64,000 nucleotides of DNA from Pedobacter cryoconitis (GTDB taxonomy: Bacteria > Bacteroidota > Bacteroidia > Sphingobacteriales > Sphingobacteriaceae). The notes below the pieces were generated by a model. It was not told the origin of the DNA. It was given only the letters and a program-made list of their open reading frames with translations, and made no database searches. Every line of letters starts with the position of its first letter. The stretch's first letter is position 1. The DNA lies in NCBI RefSeq assembly GCF_001590605.1, contig NZ_CP014504.1, forward strand, positions 3,906,001 through 3,970,000. Direction: 5' to 3'. The position numbers and the translations under genes were made by a program. Positions 4,286 through 45,030 of the stretch are shown here, in pieces.

Positions 4286-4309
4286 CATCGCGTTCTATAT
4301 AAAAAATGA

Positions 4310-4317
4310 TACCTTTG
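4310..4317 (+). promoter_or_regulatory. Bacteroidota -7 element upstream of fur
   Basis: TACCTTTG matches TAnnTTTG exactly and lies 18 nt before the fur ATG. A GGAG at 4321-4324 follows, ten bases before the ATG. No good -33 TTG was seen at the expected distance. Confidence 0.55.
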
Positions 4318-4334
4318 AGAGGAGTTTTAAAACT

Positions 4335-4823: not shown

Positions 4824-4858
4824 ACAACACAATTATAATCTTTTCTTAAATTAAAATA

Positions 4859-6136
4859 ATGACGCAAGTAGACGTGCTTCTTGGCCTGCAATGGGGCGAT
4901 GAGGGCAAAGGAAAAATTGTTGACGTATTATGTCCGCAATATGATTTGATAGCTCGTTTTCAAGGCGGACCGAATGCCGGCCACACCTTAGAGTTTGATG
5001 GCAAAAAGTTTGTTTTAAATACTATTCCATCTGGTATTTTCAACAAAGACACCATGAATTTGATTGGTAATGGTGTGGTAGTCGATCCCATCATTTTAAA
5101 AAGAGAATTAGATAACCTGAAAACTGCAGGTCATGATCCTGTTGCCAATGGCAAACTGGTGATCGCACGTAAAGCACATCTGATTCTTCCTACTCACCAG
5201 CTTTTAGACGCTGCAAATGAGCAGAAAATGGGTAAAGATAAAATCGGTTCTACACTTAAAGGTATTGGCCCGACTTATATGGATAAAACCGGACGTAATG
5301 GTTTACGTGTTGGGGATACCACCTTACCAGATTTCAAAGAACGTTATAACAAACTGGTTACTAAACACAAGGAATTACTTTCTCATTATAACTTTGAGTA
5401 TGACCTGACAGAAAAAGAAGCTGCTTTCTTCGAGGCTATTGAGTTTATCAAAACTATTCCTCATGTAGATAGCGAGCACTTTGTAAACGGTTATCTTAAA
5501 GAAGGCAAAAAAGTTCTTGCTGAAGGTGCACAGGGAACATTACTGGACATTGATTTCGGTTCTTATCCTTTCGTAACTTCTTCAAATACAACTACTGCTG
5601 GTGCTTGTACTGGTTTAGGTATTGCGCCAAACAAAATCGGAAGTGTGATCGGAATTTTCAAAGCTTACTGCACACGTGTTGGAAGCGGCCCGTTCCCTAC
5701 TGAACTGGAAGATGAAGTAGGTGAAAACCTGCGTCAGGTAGGTCACGAATTCGGTGCGACTACCGGAAGACCACGCCGTTGCGGATGGATTGACCTTCCT
5801 GCTTTAAAATATGCAATTATGCTGAATGGTGTGACTGAAATGGTCATGACTAAAGCTGATGTATTGAGCGGATTTGATACCATTTATGCTTGTACACATT
5901 ATGAGCACAATGGAGAGACGATTGATTACATGCCGTATGACATCATTACGATCAAACCAAACCCAGTTCTGAAAGAAATTGAAGGCTGGAAAACTGATAT
6001 TACTAAAATCACTGAAGTTGATCAGATCCCTGCTCAGCTTGCTTCTTATATTGCTTTCTTAGAAAAAGAATTAGAAGTACCGGTAAGATACCTTTCTGTA
6101 GGTCCGGACAGAGTACAAACGTTGATTCTTCCTTAA
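4859..6136 (+). CDS. purA: adenylosuccinate synthetase
   Basis: A 425-aa enzyme that joins IMP and aspartate using GTP, the first committed step from IMP to AMP, in the cytoplasm. The P-loop-like GDEGKGK lies at about residue 12 with the catalytic Asp, and GPNAGHT carries the catalytic His. Further hallmarks are IGSTLKGIGPTY, AEGAQGTLLD and TTGRPRRCGW. Length is typical and the start ATG follows a 35-nt gap after fur. An intrinsic terminator follows directly. Confidence 0.97.
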   Translation: MTQVDVLLGLQWGDEGKGKIVDVLCPQYDLIARFQGGPNAGHTLEFDGKKFVLNTIPSGIFNKDTMNLIGNGVVVDPIILKRELDNLKTAGHDPVANGKLVIARKAHLILPTHQLLDAANEQKMGKDKIGSTLKGIGPTYMDKTGRNGLRVGDTTLPDFKERYNKLVTKHKELLSHYNFEYDLTEKEAAFFEAIEFIKTIPHVDSEHFVNGYLKEGKKVLAEGAQGTLLDIDFGSYPFVTSSNTTTAGACTGLGIAPNKIGSVIGIFKAYCTRVGSGPFPTELEDEVGENLRQVGHEFGATTGRPRRCGWIDLPALKYAIMLNGVTEMVMTKADVLSGFDTIYACTHYEHNGETIDYMPYDIITIKPNPVLKEIEGWKTDITKITEVDQIPAQLASYIAFLEKELEVPVRYLSVGPDRVQTLILP

Positions 6137-6153
6137 GAGATCAATTCATATAT

Positions 6154-6184
6154 AAAAGGCGGCCTGGTGCCGCCTTTTTTTATT
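6154..6184 (+). terminator. intrinsic terminator after purA
   Basis: AAAAGGCGGC pairs with GCCGCCTTTT around a CTGGT loop, followed by T residues. Confidence 0.9.
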
Positions 6185-6215
6185 TAAACGTGTTGAATAC
6201 CAATTTTTAAATACA

Positions 6216-7475
6216 ATGAATTCCCAGGAACTAATTTCATTTAAACAAAAAGCTTTACAATGGGCAAATCAATTTGAAGTCTGCTGTTGTTTTGATTCAA
6301 ATGAATACACTGATCCTTATTCCAAATATGATTTTCTGCTTGCCGCAGGTACTGAGCATCAGCTGAATGCTCCAACAGGCAATGCTTTTAAGGCGCTGAA
6401 AACATTTTCTCAAACTCATCCGGGTTGGTTATTCGGCTTATTAAGCTACGATCTTAAAAACGAGGTAGAAGAGCTGACATCCGGCAAAGAGAATAAACTG
6501 GATTTTCCAGACCTCTTCTTCTTTGCACCAAAATACCTGATTGCGGTTAGCAATGGCCATATTGAAGTATTGGCAGGGCCTGCGGATTTGTTGGAGACCA
6601 TTAATGGACTACAGCAGCTTCCAGTAAATTCTGCCCCTGCTTTGCAGCTGGAGCCAAAAATGGACAAGGCAACTTATTTGGCTAAGGTCAACGAATTGAG
6701 AGATCACATTGTAAGGGGTGATATTTATGAGGTTAATTTCTGCCAGGAATTCTTTGCAGAAAATGCTTCTATTGATCCCTATCAGGTTTATCTGAATTTA
6801 AATGAATTATCCCCTACCCCATTTTCAGGCTTCTTTAAGGTGGATAAGAAGTATATTCTTTCTGCAAGTCCCGAACGTTTTTTATGCAAACGTGGAAACT
6901 TGCTAACTTCCCAGCCGATTAAAGGAACAGCGAAAAGAAGTCCTGATGTTCAGGAAGATGAACAGATTAAGATCGATTTAAAAAACAACATTAAAGAACA
7001 GGCCGAAAATGTAATGATCGTAGACCTGGTTAGAAATGATTTAACAAAAAGCGCAGTACCAGGAACGGTTAAAGTCAAGGAGCTTTTTGGAATTTACAGC
7101 TTTCCGCAGGTGCATCAGATGATTTCGACTATAAGCTGTCAGCTTAAACCGGAATTACACGCGGTTGAAGCTATAGAAAATGCTTTCCCAATGGGCTCGA
7201 TGACAGGTGCTCCGAAAGTAAGAGCAATGGAATTGATCGAAGATACAGAATGTAGCAGAAGAGGGATTTACTCTGGTGCTTTTGGGTATTTTGATCCTGA
7301 AGGGGATTTCGATTTCAATGTAGTGATCCGCAGCATCCTGTACAATGAAGAAAATAAGTATTTATCTTTCCAGGTGGGTGGAGCGATAACTTTCGCTTCT
7401 TCTGCAGAGGCTGAATATGAAGAATGTATGCTGAAAGCTTCAGCAATGATTAAAACGTTAAAAGGGTCGCATTAG
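6216..7475 (+). CDS. pabB: aminodeoxychorismate synthase component I (PabB-type chorismate-binding enzyme)
   Basis: A 419-aa chorismate-utilising enzyme. It carries PIKGTAKRS at 234-242, VDLVRNDLTKSA, the signature GSMTGAPKVRAMELI and YSGAFGYF. The Lys in PIKGT (K236) is the residue that separates PabB from anthranilate synthase TrpE, which has PIAGT. That supports conversion of chorismate to 4-amino-4-deoxychorismate for folate synthesis. No glutaminase partner gene is adjacent. The gene stands alone between two terminators. Confidence 0.85.
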   Translation: MNSQELISFKQKALQWANQFEVCCCFDSNEYTDPYSKYDFLLAAGTEHQLNAPTGNAFKALKTFSQTHPGWLFGLLSYDLKNEVEELTSGKENKLDFPDLFFFAPKYLIAVSNGHIEVLAGPADLLETINGLQQLPVNSAPALQLEPKMDKATYLAKVNELRDHIVRGDIYEVNFCQEFFAENASIDPYQVYLNLNELSPTPFSGFFKVDKKYILSASPERFLCKRGNLLTSQPIKGTAKRSPDVQEDEQIKIDLKNNIKEQAENVMIVDLVRNDLTKSAVPGTVKVKELFGIYSFPQVHQMISTISCQLKPELHAVEAIENAFPMGSMTGAPKVRAMELIEDTECSRRGIYSGAFGYFDPEGDFDFNVVIRSILYNEENKYLSFQVGGAITFASSAEAEYEECMLKASAMIKTLKGSH

Positions 7476-7485
7476 CGGCCCTTTT
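7459..7485 (+). terminator. terminator overlapping the pabB stop codon
   Basis: AAAAGGG and CCCTTTT pair, continued by CGC/GCG around an ATTA loop. The hairpin starts inside the last pabB codons. The T-run is short (four). Confidence 0.65.
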
Positions 7486-7516
7486 ATAGTATAGAATCAG
7501 AAAATTACTCTTCTGA

Positions 7517-8344
7517 TTATCTGATTGGCTTTCCCGTAGGAGAGTTAAAATATCTTTGTGCTTCTGGCAAGTCTCTTTGAATCTGTGCAATCCTTGTACC
7601 ATCTGCAGGGTGTGTACTTAAAAACTCAGGTGGTTTTTGTGAACTCTGACTTACAGCAGCCATTCTTTGCCAGAAACTCACTGCACTTGAGGGATTGTAA
7701 CCAGCCATAGACATAAAGATCAGTCCTAAGTGATCGGCTTCTAATTCCTGTGTCCTTGAATTAGGCAACAAGTAAAACCCTTGCGCACTAACCCCGTAGA
7801 TTTTGCTGATTGCAGCTTGCGTGGTTTCAGACTGACTACCAGCTGCAGCACCAACTAAACCTCCCAGACCTTGTGCTAATGCCGCTTTTGAAGCACGTTC
7901 TGAAGAGTGCTGCGCAATTGCATGTGCAATCTCATGTCCCATTACTGTGGCTAGTCCTGCATCGTCTTTAGTTACAGGCAAAATACCAGAATAAACAGCA
8001 ACTTTACCACCCGGCATACACCATGCGTTTACTTCTTTACTGTCAATCAGGTTAAATTCCCATCGAAAACCCTGAATTTGTGCAGCATAACCATTGGCAT
8101 TCATATATTTTGTAACTGCAGCAGCAATTTTTTGCCCGATTTGCTTAACTCTCTGGGCATCAGCATTATTTAATATTTTGGTTTTCGGATCTTTTAAAAG
8201 TGTGGTATAACTCTGTGCAGCGGCAGTCTGCATCTCACTTTCATTGACAAAACTTATCCTGTTTCTCCCTGACAGAGGAACTGTAGAACATGCATAAGTC
8301 ATAGATACTACAGCAGCAATACCCAGTAACGTTAATTTTTTCAT
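7517..8344 (-). CDS. M48 family metallopeptidase, lipoprotein
   Basis: A 275-aa periplasm-facing zinc protease. The signal peptide ends in a lipobox with C19 (SMTYAC), so it is a lipoprotein. The zinc site HEIAH is at 137-141 and the third ligand is in QELEADHLG at about 200. The fold resembles the LoiP/YcaL/BepA group of M48 proteases that handle outer-membrane proteins, but it lacks an obvious TPR domain. It lies 91 nt after plsY on the same strand with an inverted repeat between them. Substrate is unknown. Confidence 0.9.
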   Translation of the reverse strand: MKKLTLLGIAAVVSMTYACSTVPLSGRNRISFVNESEMQTAAAQSYTTLLKDPKTKILNNADAQRVKQIGQKIAAAVTKYMNANGYAAQIQGFRWEFNLIDSKEVNAWCMPGGKVAVYSGILPVTKDDAGLATVMGHEIAHAIAQHSSERASKAALAQGLGGLVGAAAGSQSETTQAAISKIYGVSAQGFYLLPNSRTQELEADHLGLIFMSMAGYNPSSAVSFWQRMAAVSQSSQKPPEFLSTHPADGTRIAQIQRDLPEAQRYFNSPTGKPIR

Positions 8345-8368
8345 AAGTTGATATTTTTTTCAAGGATC

Positions 8369-8429
8369 ATGAAGCTTGCATGAGCTTGCAGGTCTAATTT
8401 TAAGAACAGTAAGCTCATGCAGGTTTCAT
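8369..8429. repeat. 19-bp inverted repeat between plsY and the M48 protease gene
   Basis: Arms 8369-8387 and 8411-8429 match in 17 of 19 positions (core TGCATGAGCTT). No T-run follows on the minus strand, so it may be a processing or attenuation hairpin rather than a terminator. Confidence 0.6.
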
Positions 8430-8435
8430 CGGTTT

Positions 8436-9089
8436 TTAGTTAGTATTTGTTTTCTTTTTAAACAGATACACTTTAGATTCTTTGCCCTTAAGTAAACGTT
8501 CCAGGTTTTTCTGGTGTGTAACCAATATCAGGATGCAAACACACATCCCATACAGAACTTCAGACTTAATTGTGGAATGCAGTATAAAAACAATCCCTAA
8601 AGGAAAAGTAAATCCCGCACATATAGAGCTTAGAGATACATATTTTGTAACCAGCAATACGACCACAAAAACAAGAACACAAAGCATAGCAGCCGGGAAG
8701 TTAACTGCTAAAATCATTCCAAAAAGCGTAGCTACTCCCTTACCTCCTCTAAAACCAGCGAAGATTGGGAACAAATGTCCCATCACAGCAGTTACACCCA
8801 GTGCAAGTTCATAGTTAACAAATTGAGAAGAATTATGTGGGCCTGTTACAGATAGCCCTATAAAGTAGGCAAGCTTGGTCGCAGTGTATCCTTTAGCGAT
8901 ATCGATTGTCATTACTGCCATACCAGCCTTTTTACCCAGTACACGGAAAGTATTGGTCGCACCAGCATTTCCACTGCCGTATTCTCTTACGTCAATACCA
9001 TAAAATGCCTGTCCGATCCAAACTGCCGTAGGTATAGACCCGCAGAGATAGGCTAAAATAACCGCAGAAATAGAGTAGATAGATATCAT
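8436..9089 (-). CDS. plsY: acyl-phosphate:glycerol-3-phosphate acyltransferase PlsY
   Basis: A 217-aa multi-spanning inner-membrane enzyme that transfers an acyl group from acyl phosphate to glycerol-3-phosphate, the first step of phospholipid synthesis. Family motifs are visible: GSIPTAVWIGQ near the N-terminus, YGSGNAGATNTFRVLG, and FRGGKGVATLFG for the second and third conserved cytoplasmic loops. Five or so hydrophobic segments are present. It begins 3 nt after the nadC stop, which suggests cotranscription. Confidence 0.95.
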   Translation of the reverse strand: MISIYSISAVILAYLCGSIPTAVWIGQAFYGIDVREYGSGNAGATNTFRVLGKKAGMAVMTIDIAKGYTATKLAYFIGLSVTGPHNSSQFVNYELALGVTAVMGHLFPIFAGFRGGKGVATLFGMILAVNFPAAMLCVLVFVVVLLVTKYVSLSSICAGFTFPLGIVFILHSTIKSEVLYGMCVCILILVTHQKNLERLLKGKESKVYLFKKKTNTN

Positions 9090-9092
9090 ACC

Positions 9093-9935
9093 TTAATAGG
9101 CTTTTAAACTCATGTCTAAACTTTTAACTGAGTGGGTCAATGCGCCCATAGAGATAAAATCCACTCCACACGCTGCATATTCAGTTATATTCTCTTCGGT
9201 AATCCCACCAGACGCTTCTGTTGTAAACTGATGATCAATCAATTTCACAGCCTGTTTAAGGTCAGCAAAGCTGAAATTATCCAGCATAATCCTATTTACC
9301 TTACCTGTATTTAATACCTGGGCCAATTCTTCCAGGTTTCTTACTTCAATTTCTATTTCAAGTTTTTTACCACTATCTGCAAGATACTGATTTGCAGCTG
9401 TAATTGCATTTGAAATTCCACCTGCATAATCTACATGATTATCTTTGATCAGGATCATATCATACAAACCAATCCGGTGATTTACCCCACCACCTATTCT
9501 AACTGCCCATTTCTCCAGATATCTCATACCCGGGGTAGTTTTTCTGGTGTCCAGAATTTTAGTCTGATAAGGTAAAAGTAAATTTACAACATGATTGGTC
9601 TTAGTCGCTATCCCGCTCATTCTCTGCATGCAGTTCAAAACCAGTCTTTCGGCCAGTAAAATAGCATGGGAGCTGCCAGCAACAGTGAAGGCAATATCTC
9701 CATATTTCACAGCATCTCCATCATTTAAAAAAACTTCCGTCTGAAGCGTTGAATCTACTTGATTGAAAATTTCAAGCGCAAGTGCTACGCCGGCAAGTAT
9801 ACCATCCTCTTTAACCAATAGTTTGGCTCTTCCGGTTGTTCCGGCCGGGATGGTAGACATAGAGGTATGATCGCCATCGCCAAGGTCTTCGGCGATCGCA
9901 TTTTCTATAAATAGGTCTATTAATTTCTTATCCAA
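9093..9935 (-). CDS. nadC: nicotinate-nucleotide pyrophosphorylase (carboxylating)
   Basis: A 280-aa quinolinate phosphoribosyltransferase that makes nicotinate mononucleotide in de novo NAD synthesis. Hallmarks are EDLGDGDHTS near residue 15, LDTRKTTPGMRYLEKWAV at about 125, and GGGVNHRIGLYDMILIKDNH at about 148. The C-terminal ASGGITEENI and VDFISMGALTHS belong to the phosphate-binding barrel. It is preceded by DUF4783 and followed by plsY on the same strand. Confidence 0.96.
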   Translation of the reverse strand: MDKKLIDLFIENAIAEDLGDGDHTSMSTIPAGTTGRAKLLVKEDGILAGVALALEIFNQVDSTLQTEVFLNDGDAVKYGDIAFTVAGSSHAILLAERLVLNCMQRMSGIATKTNHVVNLLLPYQTKILDTRKTTPGMRYLEKWAVRIGGGVNHRIGLYDMILIKDNHVDYAGGISNAITAANQYLADSGKKLEIEIEVRNLEELAQVLNTGKVNRIMLDNFSFADLKQAVKLIDHQFTTEASGGITEENITEYAACGVDFISMGALTHSVKSLDMSLKAY

Positions 9936-9983
9936 AACATGTATTTTAGATCAAAAATAGCATTTTTACCTAAATTTGCATTA

Positions 9984-10379
9984 CTATTTATCGGGTTCAA
10001 TTCTTAATTCGGTGATAAAAAAGGTGTTAGCAGTTTTTTTCAGCGTAATTGCCACCCTGAATTTCCCGCTTTTTGTACTCAGGGACAGGATGCCAAACCT
10101 ATAATTAGCATTGGTATTGATCAAATGTACAACAGTTGAATTCACAGGCGCATTCTTAGTGAAAAAATCTCTGAGTATTTGTTCTGCCTGTGCTTTAGTA
10201 TATACATCTTCTTCCTCATTTATAGTCAGCTCCACAGATGGGGAAAAGCTTTTACTGATCTCTTTTGAATTCGCAGACTTGAATAACGTTGATATAGAAT
10301 CAACAATATCTCCTTGAATTAATCCAGGATGGAATAACTGGGTCAAAAAAATCAATGTCGAAAGTATGGGTCTAATCAT
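9984..10379 (-). CDS. DUF4783 family protein
   Basis: A 131-aa protein with an N-terminal signal-like segment (about residues 1-22), matching the Bacteroidota DUF4783 family. The body has an NTF2-like look: a helix with DIVDSISTLFKSAN, then SVELTINEEEDVYTKAQAEQILRDFF and beta strands ending FFITELRIEPDK. It is first in the run DUF4783, nadC, plsY, M48, with 48 nt to nadC. The function is unknown; an envelope location is inferred from the signal. Confidence 0.75.
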   Translation of the reverse strand: MIRPILSTLIFLTQLFHPGLIQGDIVDSISTLFKSANSKEISKSFSPSVELTINEEEDVYTKAQAEQILRDFFTKNAPVNSTVVHLINTNANYRFGILSLSTKSGKFRVAITLKKTANTFFITELRIEPDK

Positions 10380-22970: not shown

Positions 22971-25900
22971 ATGAAGAAAAAATACTTTTTTATTCCGCTT
23001 TTATTAGCTGGTAACCTTACCGCAGGTTATGCGCAGGTAAGTGCGTTAGTAAACCTCAATAAAAACTATCAGACGGGCCTTGAATTACTTCAAAACGAAA
23101 AGTATGTCGCTGCAGCTCAACAATTCAGATTGGTTGAACAGCTAAGACAAAAACCCGGAACAGCTCAGGAAAGTAATGCGGAACTTTCTTTACTCAAAGA
23201 AAACGCCAAGTTTTATGCCGCTGTCTGTGCATTGGAATTAGGTAACCGCGATGCAGAAAGCCTATTTCAAACCTTCATTAAAGACTATCCGTTAAATCCA
23301 AATACTAAATTAGCTTACTTCCATGTAGGTAAATCTTATTTCGCGCAAAAAAACTACCAGAAAGCATTGGACTGGTTTGAAAAAACTGACCCTTCTACCC
23401 TTTCTCAGAAACAAAGAACAGAATACCAGTTCAAACAGGCTTATTCTTATTTCGAACTGAAAAACATAGAAAAAGCAGAACCTTTATTTGAAGCAGTAAA
23501 ACAAGTTGACGGCCCTTTCCAGGAAAGTGCAACTTATTACTTTGCTTATATCAATTACCTGAATAAAGAGTATAAAACAGCCCTGAGTAATTTTGAAAAA
23601 CTGAAAGGTTCTAAAACTTATGAAGCAAGTTATCCTTATTATATCACCTCCATGTACTACCTGGATGAGCGCTATGATGATGTGATCAGTTATGCAGTTC
23701 CGGTATTAAAAAATACCAAACAACAATTTGAAGCAGAAATGCTGAGTTTAATTGCTGCTTCTTATTTTGCTAAATCAGACTACAAAAATGCAGCACTGTA
23801 TTTCAGTGACTTTTATACCAAAAGCGGTAATACTAAAACTAAAAACAATCTCTTCATTTACCAATACGGTTACTCCCTGTTCGAATTGGGGATGTACAGA
23901 GAATCTGTAGGTATATTAGAGCAGTTAACTACCGATGATGTGTATTTGCAAAGCGGTATGCACACCTTAGGCCGTGCTTTCATTAAACTAGGTGACAAAT
24001 CAAAAGCAAGAAGTGCTTTCTTCAGAGCATCCCGTCTTGAATTTGACAAAGTGACGCAGGAAGATGCCTGGATTAACTATGCAAGATTAAGTTATGAACT
24101 TGATTTCAATCAGCAGGCGTTAGAATCTACACAGAGCTTCTTAAAGCAATTCCCTTCTTCGCGTAAAATTAACGACGCCAAAACATTATTGGGCGAGATT
24201 CTTTTAACCAGCAAAAACTACCAGGCTGCAATTGATATTTTAGAGCCTATTCAGAATAAATCACCAGAAGCACTGGAAGCTTACCAGAAAGTATTATACT
24301 TCAGAGGTTTGGAATTCTACAACGAACGTGCTTTCCCGAACGGGCTTTCGATGTTCCAGCGTTCCAATGCAATTCCCAATGATGCTGAGATTCATGCATT
24401 GAGTACTTACTGGATGGCAGAAGCCATGTACGAGTTACGCAAGTACGGAGAAGCAGTCAGAACATTTGAGAAATTCCTGGCCATGCCTGATGCAGATAAA
24501 ACCAAAGTATACAACTTTGCGAATTATGCATTGGCTTATGCAGCCTTTGAAGATGAGAAATATGCAAAAGCAGCAACTTACTTTGAACGCTTCCTGAATG
24601 GAAATGATAAAGACAAAAACACAGTAGTTGATGCAACCATGCGTTTAGCGGATTCTTACTTCGTAAGCAAAAGCTATGCAAATGCCTTAACCTACTATAA
24701 CAGAATCATCACCAACAAATCAACAGGTGAAGATTATGCATTGTTCCAGAGAGGGATGATCCAGGGATTACAGGGACAGGACGATACCAAGATTACTACA
24801 ATGGGCAGCCTGTTACAACAATTCCCATCTTCAAATTATGCAGATGATGCAGGTTTTGAAATTGCCTATACCTATTTCAATAAAGGTGACCTGGACAAAT
24901 CAAAAACTGACCTGACTGCACTGATCACTAAATACCCGAACAGCAGTTATGTACCAAGAGCACTGGTTACAATCGGACTGGTACAATATAACCAGGATAA
25001 AGATGAAGAAGCACTGGCATCGTTCAAGAAAGTAATCAACGACTATGCAAGTACTGAAGAAGCTAAACAAGCTTTGGAATCTATCAAAAATATCTATGTG
25101 GACCGCGGTGATGCCAATGGCTTTATCGCTTATGCGAACACCACACCTATCGGTAATTATACGGTAGCAGAACAGGATAATATTGTTTTCTCGGCAGCCA
25201 AAAACACTTACCTGAAAGGTGATGCACAAGGAACAGTAGAAAGCGTAAATGCTTACTTTGACAAGTATCCAAAAGCGATACATGCTAAAGAAGCGAAGTT
25301 TATCAGAGCAGAATCACTAGTTAAACTGAACCGTCCTGATGATGCAATTGCTGATTACGAATTCATCCTGAATGACTGGACAAGTGATTACACAGAACGT
25401 TCACTGGTTAGCATTTCTAAATTATTCTTAGCACAGAAAAAATACAATGAAGCTATCGTATATCTGAAAAGACTGGAAACATCTGCAGATTACAAGTCAC
25501 ATTATTCATTTGCAATTAATAATCTGCTTCAGGCTTATACGGCGTTGAACATGCCAGATGATATGTTGAAGTATGTATTGCTGACTAAAGAATCTGACAA
25601 AGCTTCTGAAGAAGAAGTGAACAGTGCAGATCTTTATGCTGGTAAAGCTTACTTGTTAAAAGCAGATACTACAATGGCTGTGAAATCATTCAGTAATGTA
25701 GTTGCTAAAACAAAAACACTGGCTGCTGCTGAAGCAAAATACACATTGGCAGAAATCCAATATAATAAACATGACTATAAAGCATCTCAGAAAACTTGTT
25801 TTGATTTAGTCAATAACATGCCTTCTTACGATTACTGGGTGGCAAAAGCGTTTATCCTGCTGGCAGATAATTATGTCGCATTAAAAGACAAACTGCAAGC

Positions 25901-25991
25901 GAAAAGTACGCTCTTAAGTATTATTGATAACTATGACGGTAAAGATGAAATTGTCGCTACTGCCAAAGAGAAATTAGAAAAAATTAAATAA
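22971..25991 (+). CDS. large secreted tetratricopeptide repeat protein
   Basis: A 1006-aa protein with a signal peptide (about 1-21, GYAQ) and TPR-type helical repeats over nearly the full length. Repeats such as AYFHVGKSYFAQKNYQKALDWF and ALAYAAFEDEKYAKAATYFERF are easy to see, and the later ones resemble YbgF/CpoB and BamD repeats (SSNYADDAGFEIAYTYFNKG). It is periplasmic or outer-membrane associated, with no lipobox. It is first in a tight plus-strand run: barrel protein 11 nt later, then HU-SPOR, ExbB, ExbD, TonB-like. The context suggests a structural partner of a proton-driven envelope machine. Confidence 0.88.
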   Translation: MKKKYFFIPLLLAGNLTAGYAQVSALVNLNKNYQTGLELLQNEKYVAAAQQFRLVEQLRQKPGTAQESNAELSLLKENAKFYAAVCALELGNRDAESLFQTFIKDYPLNPNTKLAYFHVGKSYFAQKNYQKALDWFEKTDPSTLSQKQRTEYQFKQAYSYFELKNIEKAEPLFEAVKQVDGPFQESATYYFAYINYLNKEYKTALSNFEKLKGSKTYEASYPYYITSMYYLDERYDDVISYAVPVLKNTKQQFEAEMLSLIAASYFAKSDYKNAALYFSDFYTKSGNTKTKNNLFIYQYGYSLFELGMYRESVGILEQLTTDDVYLQSGMHTLGRAFIKLGDKSKARSAFFRASRLEFDKVTQEDAWINYARLSYELDFNQQALESTQSFLKQFPSSRKINDAKTLLGEILLTSKNYQAAIDILEPIQNKSPEALEAYQKVLYFRGLEFYNERAFPNGLSMFQRSNAIPNDAEIHALSTYWMAEAMYELRKYGEAVRTFEKFLAMPDADKTKVYNFANYALAYAAFEDEKYAKAATYFERFLNGNDKDKNTVVDATMRLADSYFVSKSYANALTYYNRIITNKSTGEDYALFQRGMIQGLQGQDDTKITTMGSLLQQFPSSNYADDAGFEIAYTYFNKGDLDKSKTDLTALITKYPNSSYVPRALVTIGLVQYNQDKDEEALASFKKVINDYASTEEAKQALESIKNIYVDRGDANGFIAYANTTPIGNYTVAEQDNIVFSAAKNTYLKGDAQGTVESVNAYFDKYPKAIHAKEAKFIRAESLVKLNRPDDAIADYEFILNDWTSDYTERSLVSISKLFLAQKKYNEAIVYLKRLETSADYKSHYSFAINNLLQAYTALNMPDDMLKYVLLTKESDKASEEEVNSADLYAGKAYLLKADTTMAVKSFSNVVAKTKTLAAAEAKYTLAEIQYNKHDYKASQKTCFDLVNNMPSYDYWVAKAFILLADNYVALKDKLQAKSTLLSIIDNYDGKDEIVATAKEKLEKIK

Positions 25992-26002
25992 GACAAAGCA
26001 CC

Positions 26003-27766
26003 ATGAGATTCAACAAATTATTATATACTACTGTTTTTTTACTGACCGCAGGTACACTGACCATCAAGGCACAGGATAAAAAAACGACTGAAAAGAAAGC
26101 TACCGAGAAGAAGGCAGCAGAAAAGAAAGTTGCGGATAAAAAAGTAGCAGATAAAAACGATGACGACAAACAAGTAACTGAAGAGATCGAAGTCGTAAGA
26201 CCTTATAAGCCAATTTTGGCCGAAGCAGTTAAATTAAGAAGAAGCCCGGACTTGAACGATGTTAAAACTTATAAAGCACGTTTCAATTACAGCTTAACTG
26301 ATAGAAAACTGGAGCTTAATTCAGACATTGATAAATTATATGCACAAGAAGTTGCGGCAGAAAAACAAACAGAAATTATCAATAACTATGTAAAAGGTGC
26401 TTTTGGTTCTGCCAGCACAGTTTTAGGTGAAGCTTATATTAATATGGGCCGTTCTGAAAATTACCAGGCAGGTGGTTTTTTCAGACACTTCAGTCAGTCC
26501 GGAAAATTAAACGGACAGAAATTCAACCAACAGCAATTAAGCGTTTTCGGTCGCAGCATCGGTGAAAAAGCGATATTCAGCGGTCGTATTAATTACGAGA
26601 GAAAAGGTCTTTATTTCTATGGTTATGATGAAACCAATCCACTAAGAAATCCTAATCCCGGAAAGCAGTCTTTCAACTTTATTGAAGCAGAAGCTGAGGT
26701 TGTCAACAAACACAGTGAAGATGAAGATGCCTTAAGTTATGCAGCTAAAATTAACGGCTATATCTGGGGTGACCAGTTATCTGCCAGCGAAAATTCGGTT
26801 GTGATTAACGGTTATTTGAATAAAAGGATCAGCAGTTTCAACTTTGGTTTAGCTGCTTCAGGAGAGTTTGGGAATACGAAAGATGTATCAACAAGTGTAA
26901 CCAATAATTTATTACGTTTAAACCCATACATCCGTTTACAGGCTAGTGGAATCAAAATCACAGCAGGAATTAACTTTGTTCAGGAGTTTGGTACGGTGTC
27001 TAAATCAAGGATCTTCCCTGCTGTAACTGCAGACTTCACAATTATTCCTGATTACCTGCAGATTTTTGGAGAGATTAAAGGAGACGTGAACAGAAATTCT
27101 ATGAAAGAATTCTCGGATGAAAACCCATTCCTGAATAGCAATATTGCCATTAGAAACTCTATTGAAAAACTAAGTTTCAGTGCAGGTATTAAAGGTACTG
27201 GCGGCCCTGGTTTTGGTTACAAAGCAAGAGTATACCGCAAGGAAATTACTGACATGCCACTTTTCGTAAACAACTTTACAGACTTCAACAAATTTGATGT
27301 GATCTACGATTTCGGAACGATGAAATTATTAGGTTTAGAAGGTGAAGTTTCTGTTCAGGTGAGTGATCAGTTAAAATGGACTGGTAAAATCAACGTAGAA
27401 GATTACAAACCAGCTTCAGAACAATATAGCTGGTTCAAACCTCAATTGCGTATAAGTTCAGACCTGTTATACAATGTAACAGACAAATTAGGTTTTACTG
27501 CTGCTGTAGTTATCCAGGACGCATCAAATGCAAAAATCTACACTGCTGCTCCAGCTGCTCCTTACATCATCCCTAACCCTGCAATCGAACAAGTAGTGAA
27601 TGTGAAAGGTTTTGTAGACTTAGGACTTGGCGCTAACTATAAAATCAACAACAAATTCTCAGCATTCGTTAAAGCGAATAACCTGTTAAATAAAGAGTAC
27701 AGCAGATACTTATATTACCAGGCAATTGGTGTAAATGTATTTGGCGGAATCAGCTATTCGTTCTAA
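26003..27766 (+). CDS. outer-membrane beta-barrel protein, TonB-dependent receptor-like without plug
   Basis: A 587-aa protein with a signal peptide (about 1-23, IKAQ). A Lys/Glu/Ala-rich stretch follows at about 25-52, with repeats of the type TEKKATEKKAAEKKVADKK. Then comes a conserved-looking EEIEVVRPYKPILAEAVKLRR segment. From about 100 on, alternating strands form a barrel. The end SRYLYYQAIGVNVFGGISYSF, with a terminal Phe, is typical of TonB-dependent receptor barrels. No plug domain or CarboxypepD_reg domain is present. It follows the TPR gene by 11 nt. The exposed Lys-rich linker after cleavage is unusual. Confidence 0.78.
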   Translation: MRFNKLLYTTVFLLTAGTLTIKAQDKKTTEKKATEKKAAEKKVADKKVADKNDDDKQVTEEIEVVRPYKPILAEAVKLRRSPDLNDVKTYKARFNYSLTDRKLELNSDIDKLYAQEVAAEKQTEIINNYVKGAFGSASTVLGEAYINMGRSENYQAGGFFRHFSQSGKLNGQKFNQQQLSVFGRSIGEKAIFSGRINYERKGLYFYGYDETNPLRNPNPGKQSFNFIEAEAEVVNKHSEDEDALSYAAKINGYIWGDQLSASENSVVINGYLNKRISSFNFGLAASGEFGNTKDVSTSVTNNLLRLNPYIRLQASGIKITAGINFVQEFGTVSKSRIFPAVTADFTIIPDYLQIFGEIKGDVNRNSMKEFSDENPFLNSNIAIRNSIEKLSFSAGIKGTGGPGFGYKARVYRKEITDMPLFVNNFTDFNKFDVIYDFGTMKLLGLEGEVSVQVSDQLKWTGKINVEDYKPASEQYSWFKPQLRISSDLLYNVTDKLGFTAAVVIQDASNAKIYTAAPAAPYIIPNPAIEQVVNVKGFVDLGLGANYKINNKFSAFVKANNLLNKEYSRYLYYQAIGVNVFGGISYSF

Positions 27767-27769
27767 GAG

Positions 27770-27793
27770 ATTGCCTGGATTTATCCAGGCAAT
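27770..27793 (+). repeat. intercistronic hairpin upstream of the HU-SPOR gene
   Basis: ATTGCCTGGAT (27770-27780) and ATCCAGGCAAT (27783-27793) are perfectly complementary around TT. No T-run follows, so it may stabilise or process the operon mRNA rather than end it. Confidence 0.65.
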
Positions 27794-27840
27794 TACAATT
27801 ATAATTGGTTGATACGGAATTTAAATTTATTTTTACCAGA

Positions 27841-29460
27841 ATGGATATCTTATCTTACCTCTCAGAACTTATTCAAACCCGTAAAGCCGTAGGAGTTTCC
27901 GGATTGGGAACTGTCTACAAAAAGAAATTACCGGGAAGGTACGATGCCGGAATGCATTCATTTGTACCACCCAGTTATACGATTGACTTTACGCCTGAAG
28001 TTAAAGAAGAGATTATATTAGCCGAATTTATCAGTAAAAAAAGGAATGTATCAATTGATACTGCCAACTACTTTATTGATGAATTCAGCACTGGTATCCT
28101 GCAGCAGCTAAATAATCAGCAGCATGCCGATTTTGGTGAACTTGGAAAGTTATATAAAGCTGATGATGAATTCCGCTTTGAACCAGCTGAAAAACTGAAT
28201 TACGGTTTTGATTTTTATGGTTTACCGGTTGTAAAAGCCGATCAGGAACCTTCAGCCGAAGAGATCATGCCTGAGACACCATCAGTCGAAGAAAACCAAT
28301 CCAATACAGAAGAAGAAGTAGTTCCTGCAGTTGTTCCTGTTGAAGAAGAGGAAGATCAGGCATCTGTTGAAGAGATTTCGGCTGCTTCAGAAGAGGAAGC
28401 ATTACCCTTTGAAACCCCGGCTGTTCCGGATCAGATAGAAACTCCTGAACAAGAAGTAACTCTTGCTGAAGAGAAAGATGAGGCACCTGCCGAAGAGATC
28501 CCGGTAATCGTTCCTGTTGAAACAGTTGTTCCCCATATGGAAGAACCAGCGATCCCGGAAGAAAAAGAAAAAACAGAAGGAGTTCCCACAACCCATACAG
28601 AAGAGCCTGTTACTCCTGCGGCAACTACGGCAGCTCCTGCGGTTACCCCTGTCCAGGAACCAACTATAGAAACCGTTGTCCCTCACCAGGAAAATTTTAT
28701 TCCCGATAGTCCCGGCCAACCGCGCAAAGATGAAAAACAACTTCGCGCAGAAATCGAAGCCCTTAATTTCTATCGTTCTAAATCTCCGGTAGCAAAAGCT
28801 ACGATTACTGAGCAGGAAGAAGTGATCTGGAATATTAAAGACAATACTAAAGCGAACGAGCCAGCTCCGTTTTACAATAAGAACGAAGAAATTTACAATC
28901 CTGAAGAAGAGGAAGAGCAGCCAAAAGGTACTCCGTTATATTTAAAAATCATACTGGGTTTCCTGATTTTAGTGATCATGATGATTGTTGCCTATATGGT
29001 CAAACCAGAATGGTTTAGCGGAATATTAGCCAATAGTCCTTTTGCAACTCCGAAAACTGAAGAACCAATAAAGAGGCCCATACAGGAAAGATACAAATCT
29101 GAAGCTATTACAGCTCCTGCTGATACCCCTAAAACAACAGTTGCAGCACCTTCAACCGCTGCCCCTGCTGCCGCAAAAAAAGACTCAGTTTTGAAAAAAG
29201 CAGTAGCCCCAACACATGACGCCGCTGTTGTTTATGAGATCATAGGCGCTTCCATGCACGATCAGAAAGAAGCAGACAGGTTCATTGAGCTGATGAAAAG
29301 GAGCGGCATCACTGCGAAAGTTGTCACCAATATGTCGGGAAAAAGACTAAAGATGAGTATTGCAACGTTAAAAGATGAGGAATCAGCCAAGCTTGAATTG
29401 GAGAGACTATCAAAAAAACTTAAGATACCCGGAATATACATTTATAAAAACAAACAATAA
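27841..29460 (+). CDS. HU-CCDC81-type and SPOR domain membrane protein
   Basis: A 539-aa protein from the ATG at 27841; the upstream in-frame TTG at 27805 adds 12 residues unlike the family. Residues 1 to about 120 form the bacterial CCDC81-like HU domains (YLSELIQTRKAVGVSGLGTV, then QQHADFGELGKLYKADDEF). A long acidic, Pro/Val-rich linker follows. One transmembrane helix lies at about 366-388 (YLKIILGFLILVIMMIVAYMV). A SPOR domain fills the last 75 residues (VYEIIGASMHDQKEADRFI). The N-terminus is expected in the cytoplasm, and SPOR in the periplasm binds denuded septal peptidoglycan glycans. It ends 2 nt before exbB. A link between nucleoid and division site is inferred. Confidence 0.85.
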   Translation: MDILSYLSELIQTRKAVGVSGLGTVYKKKLPGRYDAGMHSFVPPSYTIDFTPEVKEEIILAEFISKKRNVSIDTANYFIDEFSTGILQQLNNQQHADFGELGKLYKADDEFRFEPAEKLNYGFDFYGLPVVKADQEPSAEEIMPETPSVEENQSNTEEEVVPAVVPVEEEEDQASVEEISAASEEEALPFETPAVPDQIETPEQEVTLAEEKDEAPAEEIPVIVPVETVVPHMEEPAIPEEKEKTEGVPTTHTEEPVTPAATTAAPAVTPVQEPTIETVVPHQENFIPDSPGQPRKDEKQLRAEIEALNFYRSKSPVAKATITEQEEVIWNIKDNTKANEPAPFYNKNEEIYNPEEEEEQPKGTPLYLKIILGFLILVIMMIVAYMVKPEWFSGILANSPFATPKTEEPIKRPIQERYKSEAITAPADTPKTTVAAPSTAAPAAAKKDSVLKKAVAPTHDAAVVYEIIGASMHDQKEADRFIELMKRSGITAKVVTNMSGKRLKMSIATLKDEESAKLELERLSKKLKIPGIYIYKNKQ

Positions 29461-29462
29461 AT

Positions 29463-30173
29463 ATGATCACTTTGCTACAGGTTGCTACAGATACAGTACA
29501 CCATTTAACAGATACCGCCAACGCCGCAAACCAGGCTGTAGCTGCTGCACCTCAGGAACTTCACTTCTTTGATTTATTAATGAAGGGTGGCTGGGTTATG
29601 CTTCCACTTGCATTTCTTGCTTTTTCTGGTTTGGTAATCTTCGTTGAACGTTACCTGACAATCAGAAAATCTTCTAAAACAGAGTCTAATCTAATGCTTC
29701 AGATTAAACAATATATCCACGAAGGCAGATTGGAAAATGCGACTGCTTTATGCAGAAATACGAACTCCCCTTTGGGACGTATGCTGGAAAAAGGGCTTAG
29801 ACGTATTGGCCGTCCGATCAAGGATATTGAAGCTGCAATTGAGAACGTAGGTAAACTGGAAGTCTCTAAACTAGAGAAAAACATCAGCATCTTAGGGATC
29901 ATTGCAGGTATCGCGCCCATGTTAGGTTTCGTAGGAACAATTATCGGGGTAATTACAATTTTCCATGATGTATCCGTAAAAGGTGCGATTGAAATCGGAA
30001 CTATATCTGGTGGTTTATATACTAAAATGATTACTTCAGCAACAGGGCTGATTGTAGGTATTATCGCTTATGTATTATACCACATCCTGAATGCAATGGT
30101 TGAAAGGATCATCCTGAGAATGGAAACCGATGCATTAGAATTTATTGATCTATTAGAGGAACCAGGTAAATAA
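29463..30173 (+). CDS. MotA/TolQ/ExbB family proton channel protein
   Basis: A 236-aa inner-membrane protein with three transmembrane helices (about 37-57, 140-163 and 178-203). The family core is GIIAGIAPMLGFVGTIIGVITIF and KMITSATGLIVGIIAYVLYH. With ExbD/TolR it forms a proton-driven motor. The N-terminal extension of about 35 residues rich in Ala and Thr is common in Bacteroidota. Its stop overlaps the next start (TAATG). The TolQ versus ExbB assignment cannot be settled by eye. Confidence 0.93.
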   Translation: MITLLQVATDTVHHLTDTANAANQAVAAAPQELHFFDLLMKGGWVMLPLAFLAFSGLVIFVERYLTIRKSSKTESNLMLQIKQYIHEGRLENATALCRNTNSPLGRMLEKGLRRIGRPIKDIEAAIENVGKLEVSKLEKNISILGIIAGIAPMLGFVGTIIGVITIFHDVSVKGAIEIGTISGGLYTKMITSATGLIVGIIAYVLYHILNAMVERIILRMETDALEFIDLLEEPGK

Positions 30174-30574
30174 TGAATCTACGCAAAAGAAATAAAGGAA
30201 CTGTTGAGGTACACACTTCTGCGCTGAATGACATCATGTTTTTCCTGATGCTGTTCTTCCTGCTTGCTTCGGCAGCAGTGAACCCGCAGGTCGTTAAATT
30301 ACTTCTTCCACGTTCTGAATCCGGACAACAATCTGCTGCCCAGAAAACAGTGACGGTCTCTATCAATGATAATCTGACTTATTTTGTAGAGAAACAACCA
30401 GTCACACTGGATCAGATGAAAGCAAGTATTGAAACTTATCAAAAGGCATCTCCGGATCTGACAATCGTATTATATGTTGCCAGAGGAGTTTCCATCGAGA
30501 ATACTATGGCAGTTTTTGATGTAGCCAATCAGTTGAAACTGAAAGTTGTATTAGCTGTAGAACCAAAAAAATAA
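30173..30574 (+). CDS. ExbD/TolR family biopolymer transporter
   Basis: A 133-aa single-pass inner-membrane protein. The channel Asp is D20 in ALNDIMFFLMLFFLLAS, at the start of the transmembrane helix, and the rest is a periplasmic ExbD/TolR domain ending KVVLAVEPKK. It partners the upstream ExbB-type gene. Both ends overlap neighbours by one base (TAATG), indicating translational coupling across exbB-exbD-tonB. Confidence 0.93.
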   Translation: MNLRKRNKGTVEVHTSALNDIMFFLMLFFLLASAAVNPQVVKLLLPRSESGQQSAAQKTVTVSINDNLTYFVEKQPVTLDQMKASIETYQKASPDLTIVLYVARGVSIENTMAVFDVANQLKLKVVLAVEPKK

Positions 30575-31395
30575 TGACTTACCATAAAGAAGAAAATAAT
30601 TATCCTAAGGCCGTAGCAATATCCACCGCGATCATGGCTGGTTTATTGATATTAAGCTTTTTTATTGCTATCGGGACTTTCAAACCTGTTGAAGAAGCAG
30701 GTATGGGCGGAATGGTAGTTAATTATGGTACTTCTGTAGAGGGAATGGGTACGGATTATACCAGTATAGAGGAACCTTCTGCCGACCCGGATGCAAACAA
30801 GCAGCTTCCTGACAAAGTAGTTCCTGAAAAGGTAGTTACGCCTGTTAAATCAGTAGAAAGTTCCGACAAGGAAATCACGACACAAGACAACGAAGAAGCC
30901 GTAAGTATCAGTACTAAGAAAAACACGAAACCTTCTACCCCTACTGTCGCTACCAAAGTGGTTGACAAACCAGCTAAACCTGCTGTAAATCAAAATGCAC
31001 TTTATAAAGGTAAAGCCAACAAAGGAAATGGACAGGGAGATGGGACCGGAACTACACCTGGTAATCAGGGATCAGTTAACGGAGATCCATTAGCTAACAA
31101 TTATGGTGAAGGCGGTTCTGGTTTTGGTGGTACGCCAATTGCATTAAGACGCTTTACTAACCTGGTAACCCCTCAGGATAACGGACAAAAAACAGGTAAA
31201 ATAGCAGTCAGGATCAGTATCAATAAACAAGGGATAGTTGTAGATGCCACTCCTGGTGTCAGAGGGACAACCTTGCAGGATCTGGATCTCTGGGCTAAAT
31301 GTAAAGCAGCCGTAATGGGTGCACGTCTCAACCAATCTGAATCTGCACCTGACCTGCAGGTAGGCGTTGTAGTTTTTAATTTTAAAGTGAAATAA
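30574..31395 (+). CDS. TonB/TolA-like energy transducer
   Basis: A 273-aa protein with one N-terminal transmembrane helix (about 14-33, VAISTAIMAGLLILSFFIAI). A Pro/Lys/Thr-rich periplasmic spacer and a Gly-rich stretch (about 148-190, with NKGNGQGDGTG) follow. The C-terminal domain of about 80 residues starts at RRFTNLVTPQDNGQKTGKI and resembles the TonB/TolA C-terminal fold (KIAVRISINKQGIVVDATPG). It should couple the ExbB-ExbD motor to an outer-membrane partner, perhaps the barrel protein encoded upstream. It is the last gene of the run; folC has its own promoter. Confidence 0.8.
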   Translation: MTYHKEENNYPKAVAISTAIMAGLLILSFFIAIGTFKPVEEAGMGGMVVNYGTSVEGMGTDYTSIEEPSADPDANKQLPDKVVPEKVVTPVKSVESSDKEITTQDNEEAVSISTKKNTKPSTPTVATKVVDKPAKPAVNQNALYKGKANKGNGQGDGTGTTPGNQGSVNGDPLANNYGEGGSGFGGTPIALRRFTNLVTPQDNGQKTGKIAVRISINKQGIVVDATPGVRGTTLQDLDLWAKCKAAVMGARLNQSESAPDLQVGVVVFNFKVK

Positions 31396-31438: not shown

Positions 31439-32725
31439 ATGACTTATTTAGAAACCCTGGATTACCTGTACAGCAGACTTCCAATGTTTACCCGTATCGG
31501 TGCAGCAGCAATGAAAAAGGACTTACACAACACGATCGTGATGTGTGAAAATCTGGGAAACCCTCAGGATAAATTTAAGACTATACACGTAGGCGGTACA
31601 AATGGGAAAGGCTCTACTTCACATATGCTTGCGGCTATTTTACAGAAAGCCGGTTACAAAACCGGCTTATATACCTCTCCCCATTTAAAAGACTTCAGAG
31701 AAAGGATCAGAGTAAATGGCGAAATGATCACTGAACGTTTCGTCACTGATTTTACCGCACAGCAAAAAGAGCTTATGGAATCCATTAGCCCTTCTTTTTT
31801 TGAAGTAACCGTGGCGATGGCATTTGCTTACTTCGAAGCAGAAAAGGTTGACGTAGCCATTGTTGAAGTTGGCCTTGGCGGCAGAAAAGATTCGACAAAT
31901 ATCATTCATCCGGCGTTGTCCGTAATTACAAATATCAGCTTTGACCATACCAATTTATTAGGCAATACCCTGTTTGAAATTGCTGGACAGAAAGCTGGGA
32001 TTATCAAACCCGGAGTGCCCGCTGTGATCGGAGAAAGACAAGAAGAAATTGCGCAGGTATTCATAACTGAAGCCAAAGAAACAGCAAGTGAGCTGATCTT
32101 TGCAAATACGGAGCTGCGTGTTCAGGATACCGTACGCGAAGGCAGACTACTGAAAACATCAGTTTATCAACAAGATACCTGTCTGTTTAAAGATTTGACA
32201 CTTGATCTGAGCGGATTTTATCAGCTAAAAAACTTGCTGACAGTCATACAATCTGTACTGACATTGAATCAACATGGCTTTAACATTACTGATGAAGCCT
32301 TGTATAGTGGTTTGGCCCATACCGTTCAAATTACTGGTTTACAAGGAAGATGGCAAACCCTCCAGGAGAATCCTTTAATTATCTGTGATACCGGACATAA
32401 TATTGCAGGTATCCAGGAAGTACTGGAAAACATCAATGCCACCGAATATCACAATTTACATATCGTTATTGGCATGTTAGGCGATAAAGATGTGACCAGT
32501 GTATTGGAAATGCTCCCGTTAAATGCAAAATACTACTTTTGCCAGCCCGATCTGGAAAGAGCAATGCCAGCACATCAACTGGCAGAACAAGCGGCAAAAT
32601 TTATGTTACAAGGCCCTGTTTTCGAAACGGTAACCTTAGCTTTGAACGCAGCTAAAGCGACTGCTGAAACCGATGATCTGATTTTTGTTGGTGGGAGTAC
32701 ATTCGTCGTAGCTGAAGTGCTTTAA
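31439..32725 (+). CDS. folC: folylpolyglutamate synthase/dihydrofolate synthase
   Basis: A 428-aa Mur-ligase-family enzyme that adds glutamate to dihydropteroate and folates. The ATP loop is HVGGTNGKGSTSHMLAAIL at about 52-70. Then come YTSPHLKDFRERIRVNG, VEVGLGGRKDSTN, and SFDHTNLLGNTLFEIAGQKAGI. The C-terminal domain has CDTGHNIAGIQEVL. The length is typical. A weak TonB-folC link is positional only, since a promoter lies between them. Confidence 0.95.
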   Translation: MTYLETLDYLYSRLPMFTRIGAAAMKKDLHNTIVMCENLGNPQDKFKTIHVGGTNGKGSTSHMLAAILQKAGYKTGLYTSPHLKDFRERIRVNGEMITERFVTDFTAQQKELMESISPSFFEVTVAMAFAYFEAEKVDVAIVEVGLGGRKDSTNIIHPALSVITNISFDHTNLLGNTLFEIAGQKAGIIKPGVPAVIGERQEEIAQVFITEAKETASELIFANTELRVQDTVREGRLLKTSVYQQDTCLFKDLTLDLSGFYQLKNLLTVIQSVLTLNQHGFNITDEALYSGLAHTVQITGLQGRWQTLQENPLIICDTGHNIAGIQEVLENINATEYHNLHIVIGMLGDKDVTSVLEMLPLNAKYYFCQPDLERAMPAHQLAEQAAKFMLQGPVFETVTLALNAAKATAETDDLIFVGGSTFVVAEVL

Positions 32726-39404: not shown

Positions 39405-39412
39405 CTTTAAGA

Positions 39413-39523
<111 letters not shown>

Positions 39524-39674
39524 ATGTCTTTATCCAGCTTTTGTTTGATCGCTTTCTACAGCGATTGCTCGATTGATATTGTAATGGTCTGCTCCTGCTC
39601 TGCTGTTTGCAGGCGGGTATCAAACGATGACATATTATTGAAAGAAGTTAGTTATGAAGAACAAACAACAGTTT

Positions 39675-42563
<2,889 letters not shown>

Positions 42564-42798
42564 CTCCATAGCCTTTTGCGCCTATGGAAATGCTTTTTTA
42601 TTCTGTTATTAACCTTACAGTTCCATTTTGTGTACAAGTACACTAGTAGTTCCTTCAAGCTAACAACGTCTCTATTGTTGTTTGCTCTTCTTTATTAACT
42701 TCTTCCAATATGTCAAAGAACTTTATTGTCCCAGGTATTACAGTATTACTACCTCTACCCTATTTCCTGTAGCTTTTATCTTAACTACGGGCCAATCG

Positions 42799-42872
42799 TG
42801 GAGAATAACGGAGTCGAACCGTTGACCTCCTGCGTGCAAGGCAGGCGCTCTAGCCAGCTGAGCTAATCCCCC
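42799..42872 (-). tRNA. tRNA-Ala (TGC)
   Basis: A 74-nt cloverleaf on the minus strand. The anticodon stem CCTGC/GCAGG holds the loop CTTGCAC with anticodon TGC. The T arm contains GGTTCGACTCC. CCA is not encoded. It lies in the 16S-23S spacer. Confidence 0.96.
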
Positions 42873-42887
42873 TTAGAATATATAATG

Positions 42888-42961
42888 TAGTCCCGAGCAG
42901 ATTTGAACTGCTGACCCCTACATTATCAGTGTAGTGCTCTAACCAACTGAGCTACGGGACT
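42888..42961 (-). tRNA. tRNA-Ile (GAT)
   Basis: A 74-nt cloverleaf on the minus strand. The anticodon stem CTACA/TGTAG holds the loop CTGATAA with anticodon GAT. The acceptor stem is AGTCCCG/CGGGACT. CCA is not encoded. It is 15 nt upstream of tRNA-Ala in the operon. Confidence 0.96.
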
Positions 42962-43180
42962 ATTTTCCTGGGTCAGGGTTGTTGTTGAGGTGTCTCAGCA
43001 CAATTCCTTTTCCTCGGTCAATTCCTTCTTTCAGCAGGTGAACAACACTCATGTTGATGTTTCATCCTATGGGTTTTTCTTTTTGAGATTTTATTGTCAT
43101 TTACTTATATACTTAGTTACTCTATGTGTTAGAGTTTCATTGGTATATCATTTACGCAGCGAGTAATCTGTCTTACTCCA

Positions 43181-44702
<1,522 letters not shown>

Positions 44703-45030
44703 TAAAATGTTATGTTTGAACGCTGACCATTCTTAACTTGTATTAATAATAGTCTTATTCTTATTTGTCTGTCAGAACAGACTTAAAAAACTCGCGCGGT
44801 TCATGTACTTTGAACTTGTACTAGCTTACCTCGCTACGTTTGTAAATGACATCTCTTTAATGAACTTCTCGGCAGCACCTCACGGTTGCCTTTATATGTT
44901 GCAATGATTTACTTTCCAATTCCTAAAGTCTTAATGTTCTTCAGGTCTTTTCCAGTATTTCATCGTTTCAGTCTTGTTAGTATTGCCTTGTCAACATCCG
45001 TTGTAAAGCTTCCCGTTTTTGTTGGGACTG

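Follow-up and report, generated by a model that had tools for sequence, protein, structure and literature searches.

What is an ExbB/ExbD-type envelope motor for when it is encoded together with one particular outer-membrane barrel? This question is raised by six adjacent genes at positions 22971-31395 of a 64,000-nucleotide stretch of Pedobacter cryoconitis DNA (contig NZ_CP014504.1, positions 3,906,001 to 3,970,000; hereafter, the window), which code for a protein with tetratricopeptide repeats (TPRs), a barrel protein, an HU-SPOR membrane protein, ExbB, ExbD, and a TonB-like transducer. The original prediction regarded them as an envelope or division machine built on the plan of Tol-Pal. 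How Bacteroidota, which abound both in the human gut and at sea, maintain and constrict their outer membrane without Tol-Pal is an open question. Six plus-strand open reading frames (ORFs) were re-found with the listed coordinates and strand, separated by 11, 74, 2, -1, and -1 nucleotides. The gene set, with its gaps and parts, was borne out by ORFs, domain matches, and structural models, and many families share its gene order, which places the set beyond chance. The closest named loci were from Pedobacter, the window ExbB being 98% identical to that of Pedobacter cryoconitis. We conclude that these genes form a genuine set, old and specific. By descent it is not Tol-Pal; the most plausible reading is a motor derived from a Ton system that serves a single plugless barrel and is positioned by a SPOR domain.

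The six genes recur together across Bacteroidota

Two samples were surveyed, one of the phylum (148 genomes) and one of the class Bacteroidia (197 genomes). In the phylum sample, the TPR protein model matched 107 genomes and the barrel model 105, and the two genes were adjacent in 81; in Bacteroidia, the corresponding matches were found in 191 and 188 genomes. A high-scoring class of ExbB was present in 91 of the 148 genomes, and its gene lay no more than 4.5 kb downstream of the barrel gene in 64 genomes from 16 families (the class was set by a score cut, and one further genome class, near 1e-49 to 1e-58, was left out). Most loci that were read, including those of the distant families f14 and f16, contained a SPOR or HU-SPOR gene between the barrel and ExbB genes. 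A survey of named loci was built on ExbB, the barrel and TPR alignments being too divergent for a pattern search, and 34 of its 80 loci carried all six genes in order (in one, the TPR gene was cut by the contig end).

Because linkage recurs across the phylum, we rule out that the genes are not conserved together, and the gene-order survey bears out their conservation as a set, as the original prediction supposed. Given the recurrence in 16 families, we also reject a chance neighborhood, and given near-universal presence, together with the lack of substrate genes nearby, a single nutrient locus. In our judgment, the six genes very probably constitute a single functional module distinct from the nutrient Ton system.

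One alternative is that the motor is an ordinary second nutrient Ton system serving many TonB receptors, with the barrel, TPR, and SPOR genes as chance neighbors. An exbB-exbD-tonB-folC cluster is common among the named loci of Bacteroidales, Flavobacteriales, Chitinophagales, and Cytophagales, and in many genomes it stands without the barrel gene, as this alternative would have it. The recurrent linkage of the barrel to the ExbB class argues to the contrary, and so does locus L191 (positions 3886-10250; the one locus read from family f22), where a TPR-barrel-SPOR-TonB operon has no exbB or exbD, and TonB nevertheless remains by the barrel. This order suggests a link of the transducer to the barrel, not to its motor.

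Three further Pedobacter loci (L099, L100, and L107) kept the order HU-SPOR-ExbB-ExbD-TonB-folC, with no TPR or barrel gene within the flank; in L100 and L107, an insertion was seen between tonB and folC.

The motor is separate from the nutrient motor of the same genome

The predicted ExbB/TolQ-family proton channel (236 amino acids, 29463-30173, plus strand, as are all six genes) and ExbD/TolR-family protein (133 amino acids, 30173-30574) gave clear matches to the Pfam domains MotA_ExbB and ExbD, respectively. Asp20 in the transmembrane (TM) segment of ExbD was invariant in 82 of 82 aligned sequences. The 273-amino-acid transducer (30574-31395) had no Pfam match itself; nine of its 14 aligned relatives matched TonB_C. 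It comprises a single N-terminal TM helix (residues 10-34), the conserved strand motif GGMVVNYGT just behind it, which is comparable to the "motor box" of PMC12204202, a long disordered linker, and a C-terminal domain (CTD, residues ~194-272) with a TonB fold. In a fold search, the modelled CTD matched TonB CTDs with Z scores of up to 9.4 and TolA domain III with Z scores of up to 7.7. A TM-region histidine occurred in half of the 56 transducer relatives but is missing from the window copy. Thus, a channel with a TM aspartate and a TonB-fold transducer with one N-terminal TM segment, both features of Ton systems, are present, and the motor and transducer assignments made earlier are upheld by the MotA_ExbB and ExbD matches, by TonB_C in the relatives, and by the TonB fold.

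The genome contains two MotA_ExbB genes. The other one belongs to an ExbB (275 amino acids)-ExbD (204)-ExbD (178)-TonB (273) operon (locus L069), which is of the ordinary nutrient type. The window motor represents an ExbB class separate from the nutrient one, in agreement with the earlier claim that this is not an ordinary nutrient TonB system.

The barrel protein has no plug and a highly conserved tail

The 587-amino-acid outer-membrane protein (26003-27766) consists of a signal peptide (residues 1-24), an unstructured stretch (25-125), and a TonB-receptor-type barrel (126-587). In an AlphaFold2 model built from 36 sequences, residues 1-125 had a predicted local distance difference test (pLDDT) score below 50, and about 22 strands, counted by hand from the strand list of the model, were formed by residues 126-587. 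In the PDB, the model was closest to TonB-dependent receptors (PfeA, BtuB, and ZnuD among them), and a sequence profile search pointed to receptors of this kind as well. The plug domain that is expected of the outer-membrane partner in a Ton system was absent, since residues 1-125 had no fold in the model and no plug family was found in the domain search. The description of the protein as a receptor-like barrel without a plug therefore holds.

The best-kept part of the protein is its unstructured N-terminal tail, the barrel itself being less conserved. Over the whole length, the top-scoring 12-residue conservation windows fell in residues 61-84 (EIEVVRPYKPILAEAVKLRRSPDL; 26183-26254). In f21 sequences (Balneolia-type, by our own naming), the equivalent stretch, QDIEIRSEFKARFPGLRRQPILGF, was 95-97% conserved, compared to 57% overall. 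The IEV/IEI core of the tail appears to resemble a TonB box, a likeness judged from knowledge of the family. In our judgment, it is more likely than not that the barrel tail is where the TonB-like protein acts.

The system thus resembles a Ton system in its motor, its TonB-fold transducer domain, its 22-strand receptor-type barrel, and its TonB-box-like tail; it differs in that the barrel is plug-free, a single barrel is encoded with the motor, the TPR and HU-SPOR genes are fixed members, and the motor is distinct from the nutrient operon of the genome.

The barrel fold and its tail are also what one would expect of a dedicated transporter, in which force from TonB opens or empties the plugless barrel for one class of substrate (for example, lipid, glycan, peptidoglycan fragments, or a secreted protein), the TPR protein serves as a periplasmic gate, and SPOR locates the assembly near wall synthesis. 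A TonB receptor of Myxococcus is reported to serve protein secretion (PMC6434023). However, substrate-locus genes are absent nearby, near-universal presence in Bacteroidia favors housekeeping over one nutrient, and the barrel is less conserved than the tail. We regard a transporter as possible, though rather unlikely.

The remaining envelope component, the TPR protein (1006 amino acids, 22971-25991), was found to have many TPRs in a domain search and a Sec signal peptide, as read from its sequence, in which no lipobox was seen. Its description as a periplasmic TPR protein is confirmed by these features.

The HU-SPOR protein

The gene between the barrel and motor genes (27841-29460) encodes two HU-CCDC81 domains, predicted to be cytoplasmic, a TM segment, and a periplasmic SPOR domain. 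Its start is likely ATG 27841, as judged from relatives, which begin at the MDI/MNL position; TTG 27805 was rejected as an N-terminal over-extension. The gap after the barrel gene is 74 nucleotides because of this start. In the window copy, Pfam HU-CCDC81_bac_2 scored above the cut-off and HU-CCDC81_bac_1 just below it. Of 26 relatives, 19 had a SPOR match, Pedobacter-type copies among them; in the window copy, SPOR was below Pfam detection. The original assignment of a membrane protein with a SPOR domain is thus supported by architecture and relatives, but not by a Pfam match in the window copy itself.

The protein shares the HU pair, TM segment, and SPOR domain with the HU-CCDC81/SPOR proteins (Pfam PF18174 and PF18175), for which Burroughs et al. 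reportedly proposed a chromosome-partition role in 2017. The link of such proteins to motor, barrel, and TPR genes is new here. SPOR domains are recruited to denuded septal peptidoglycan, and a chromosome-partition device, with HU holding DNA at the membrane, SPOR fixing it at the septum, and the motor merely co-regulated, would account for the HU pair joined to SPOR and for the separation of the HU-SPOR gene from the motor genes in Flavobacteriaceae-like genomes. Yet HU domains were below detection in the L079 and L191 copies, which retain SPOR, so DNA contact is not a constant feature, and we consider a partition device very unlikely. In the Flavobacteriaceae-like loci L041, L042, L071, and L068, the HU-SPOR gene was often next to genes for proteins of ~367 and 170 amino acids.

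Distribution relative to Tol-Pal

Pal (TIGR02802) scored above the curated cut-off in 30 of the 148 genomes, which were exactly all 30 members of family f15, and the TPR-barrel pair was found in none of them. The three f15 loci that were read had the order tolQ-tolR-tolA-tolB-pal-cpoB-like. A photosystem gene was present in the tested members of f15, f13, and f26, and on this ground we infer that these families are Chlorobiia. No tol-pal locus was reported for Bacteroidetes in a 2025 survey (PMC12204202). What the present analysis shows directly is that the genes are conserved and linked, what their architecture is, that their ExbB forms a class apart, and that their distribution is complementary to that of Pal. 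In the Bacteroidota genomes G001, G006, G011, G016 (f10), and G014, the TPR-barrel pair was missing, and so was Pal above the cut-off.

In the genome studied here, Pal was not found above the TIGR02802 cut-off, and TolB_N (PF04052) had no match, although that model, which also misses many f15 genomes, is weak alone. The window ExbB scored 67.1 bits against the TolQ equivalog TIGR02796, whose cut-off is 221. A tree of 62 proteins placed the window ExbB group beside the nutrient group, with other Bacteroidota ExbBs, and apart from TolQ (E. coli and f15) and E. coli ExbB; branches were long, the root was placed for drawing only, and one f14 row fell outside the operon group. This placement makes the machine Ton-like rather than a Tol system. 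The TPR protein scored 192 bits against TIGR02795 "tol-pal YbgF" (cut-off 90), a score summed over the many repeats of this 1006-residue protein, and 44 of 383 with the CpoB equivalog; the TIGR02795 match was not accepted as evidence of membership. Membership in Tol-Pal was rejected on the Pal and TolB_N results, the sub-threshold TolQ score, and the ExbB grouping.

The proposal that the locus follows the same plan as Tol-Pal is therefore retained in part. The gene set is conserved, and the genomes with Pal have no TPR-barrel pair; on the other hand, Pal and TolB_N are missing, the CTD is somewhat nearer to TonB, and ExbB does not group with TolQ. Common to both systems are a proton-motive-force motor of ExbB/TolQ and ExbD/TolR type, a trans-periplasmic transducer, a TPR protein in the operon, and likely septal recruitment. 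In contrast to Tol-Pal (TolQRA, TolB, Pal, and CpoB), whose outer-membrane end is a lipoprotein, the window system ends in an integral barrel.

Relation to Riemerella TonB1

Riemerella anatipestifer has an exbB-exbD-tonB1 cluster for proteins of 24, 14.7, and 30.6 kDa and an exbB-exbD-exbD-tonB2 cluster for proteins of 30.8, 21.1, 20.4, and 31 kDa (PMC4446302), which match the window motor and the nutrient operon, respectively, in size and layout. The tonB1 quantitative PCR primer encodes KEEVVS, compared to KEVVTT in f3 copies, and the tonB2 primer encodes GAYDLR, compared to YGAYELR in the nutrient TonB of our genome. Because sizes, layout, and primer-encoded peptides match, TonB1 is very likely the ortholog of the window transducer. 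The Riemerella system (also TonBA) has been described only as an iron/hemin TonB system, and the barrel, TPR, and HU-SPOR genes were not considered there; its operon is followed by an HI0933-family gene, in contrast to folC in the window.

The additive effect of TonB1 and TonB2 on hemin use, with tonB1 deletion worsening the hemin defect of a tonB2 mutant (PMC4446302), favors the second nutrient Ton system introduced above, and a tonB1 mutant was reported to be defective on bovine hemoglobin (PMC5109031). However, the tonB1 deletion mutant was viable and had no iron-uptake defect in GCB (PMC8383284), and the hemin receptors RhuR and RhuB act via TonB2 (PMC10986502). Given these mutant data, a simple nutrient role is unlikely, and a second nutrient system with chance neighbors is quite improbable. 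Loss of tonB1 with iron uptake intact lowers natural transformation (PMC8383284), a point in favor of a transporter. A DNA-import pore, suggested by the wide barrel, HU, and the lower transformation, was set aside, as the genes are near-universal and a Riemerella transposon screen for transformation names no gene described as coding for a TPR, SPOR, or plugless-barrel protein.

A candidate trans-envelope force machine

From the features described above, physical contacts, location, and function can be proposed for the parts. The six genes would encode one trans-envelope force machine. ExbB-ExbD would be powered by the proton gradient, as expected from the family and the invariant aspartate. 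Anchored in it, the TonB-like protein would span the periplasm, grip the TonB-box-like tail, and pull on the outer-membrane barrel, in which there is no plug to displace. The TPR protein would be the constant periplasmic partner of the barrel, probably capping it or connecting it with peptidoglycan enzymes, like CpoB in Tol-Pal. HU-SPOR would recruit the complex to denuded septal peptidoglycan, and its HU pair may sense or hold the chromosome. Such a machine would most likely serve outer-membrane maintenance and constriction and, in non-Chlorobiia Bacteroidota, would be analogous but not homologous to Tol-Pal.

This reading is supported by the TPR-barrel-motor linkage, by near-universality in Bacteroidia, by the SPOR gene between barrel and motor, by TonB staying by the barrel and SPOR in L191, by the conserved tail and TonB-fold CTD, and by the occurrence of Pal without the pair in all 30 f15 genomes, together with the reported lack of tol-pal in Bacteroidetes (PMC12204202). 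By analogy, the pair, motor, and septum-type anchor are a strong candidate for the machine that plays the Tol-Pal role in Bacteroidota.

Several observations weigh against it. A division role would follow from the SPOR domain and from analogy, and SPOR is below detection in the window copy. In the Flavobacteriaceae-like family f4, TPR-barrel, HU-SPOR, and ExbBD-TonB-folC lie apart from one another, and pair-motor linkage is lost in other families as well. Neither the pair nor Pal above the cut-off was found in f10, f13, f26, and one f17 genome; since f13 and f26 have neither system, the Pal-versus-pair pattern amounts to one evolutionary contrast in one clade. The hemin effect of tonB1 also counts here, and the system is dispensable in R. 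anatipestifer, where TonB1 can be deleted. E. coli tol mutants are viable too. Finally, PorE, a CpoB-TolB-Pal fusion lipoprotein without a linked motor, has been proposed instead as the tether between outer membrane and peptidoglycan in Bacteroidetes (PMC12204202); it could act together with the six-gene system.

We put the probability of an outer-membrane or division role for the six-gene system, which is argued by analogy, at roughly 0.45. An unlikely extension is a phylum-level division machine that couples all layers and replaces Tol-Pal in nearly all non-Chlorobiia Bacteroidota. Its HU domains would sit at the chromosome and its SPOR domain at septal peptidoglycan, while a motor derived from a Ton system would pull on a TPR-capped plugless barrel. 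The near-universal gene pair and its linked motor provide a short list of candidate genes for the outer-membrane question, and, if the force-machine reading is true, a TonB-receptor barrel has been converted from importer to force anchor.

Flanking features

Downstream lies folC (folylpolyglutamate synthase; 31439-32725, plus strand), the usual gene after exbB-exbD-tonB across the phylum, as does the alkaline phosphatase gene pafA; folC is outside the machine but is perhaps co-transcribed. Phosphoribosyltransferase and carbamoyltransferase genes (pyrR/pyrB-like) are found upstream. The region ahead of the TPR gene contained no match to a strict Bacteroidota promoter motif. A strong RNA hairpin (27767-27796, plus strand; ATTGCCTGGA-TTTA-TCCAGGCAAT) directly follows the barrel stop codon, with a minimum free energy of -20.7 kcal/mol for 27755-27820 (z -4.8). 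It has no clear T-run and is possibly an attenuator or processing site. Further away, a complete 5S-23S-tRNA Ala/Ile-16S rRNA operon occupies positions 39412-44703 of the minus strand.

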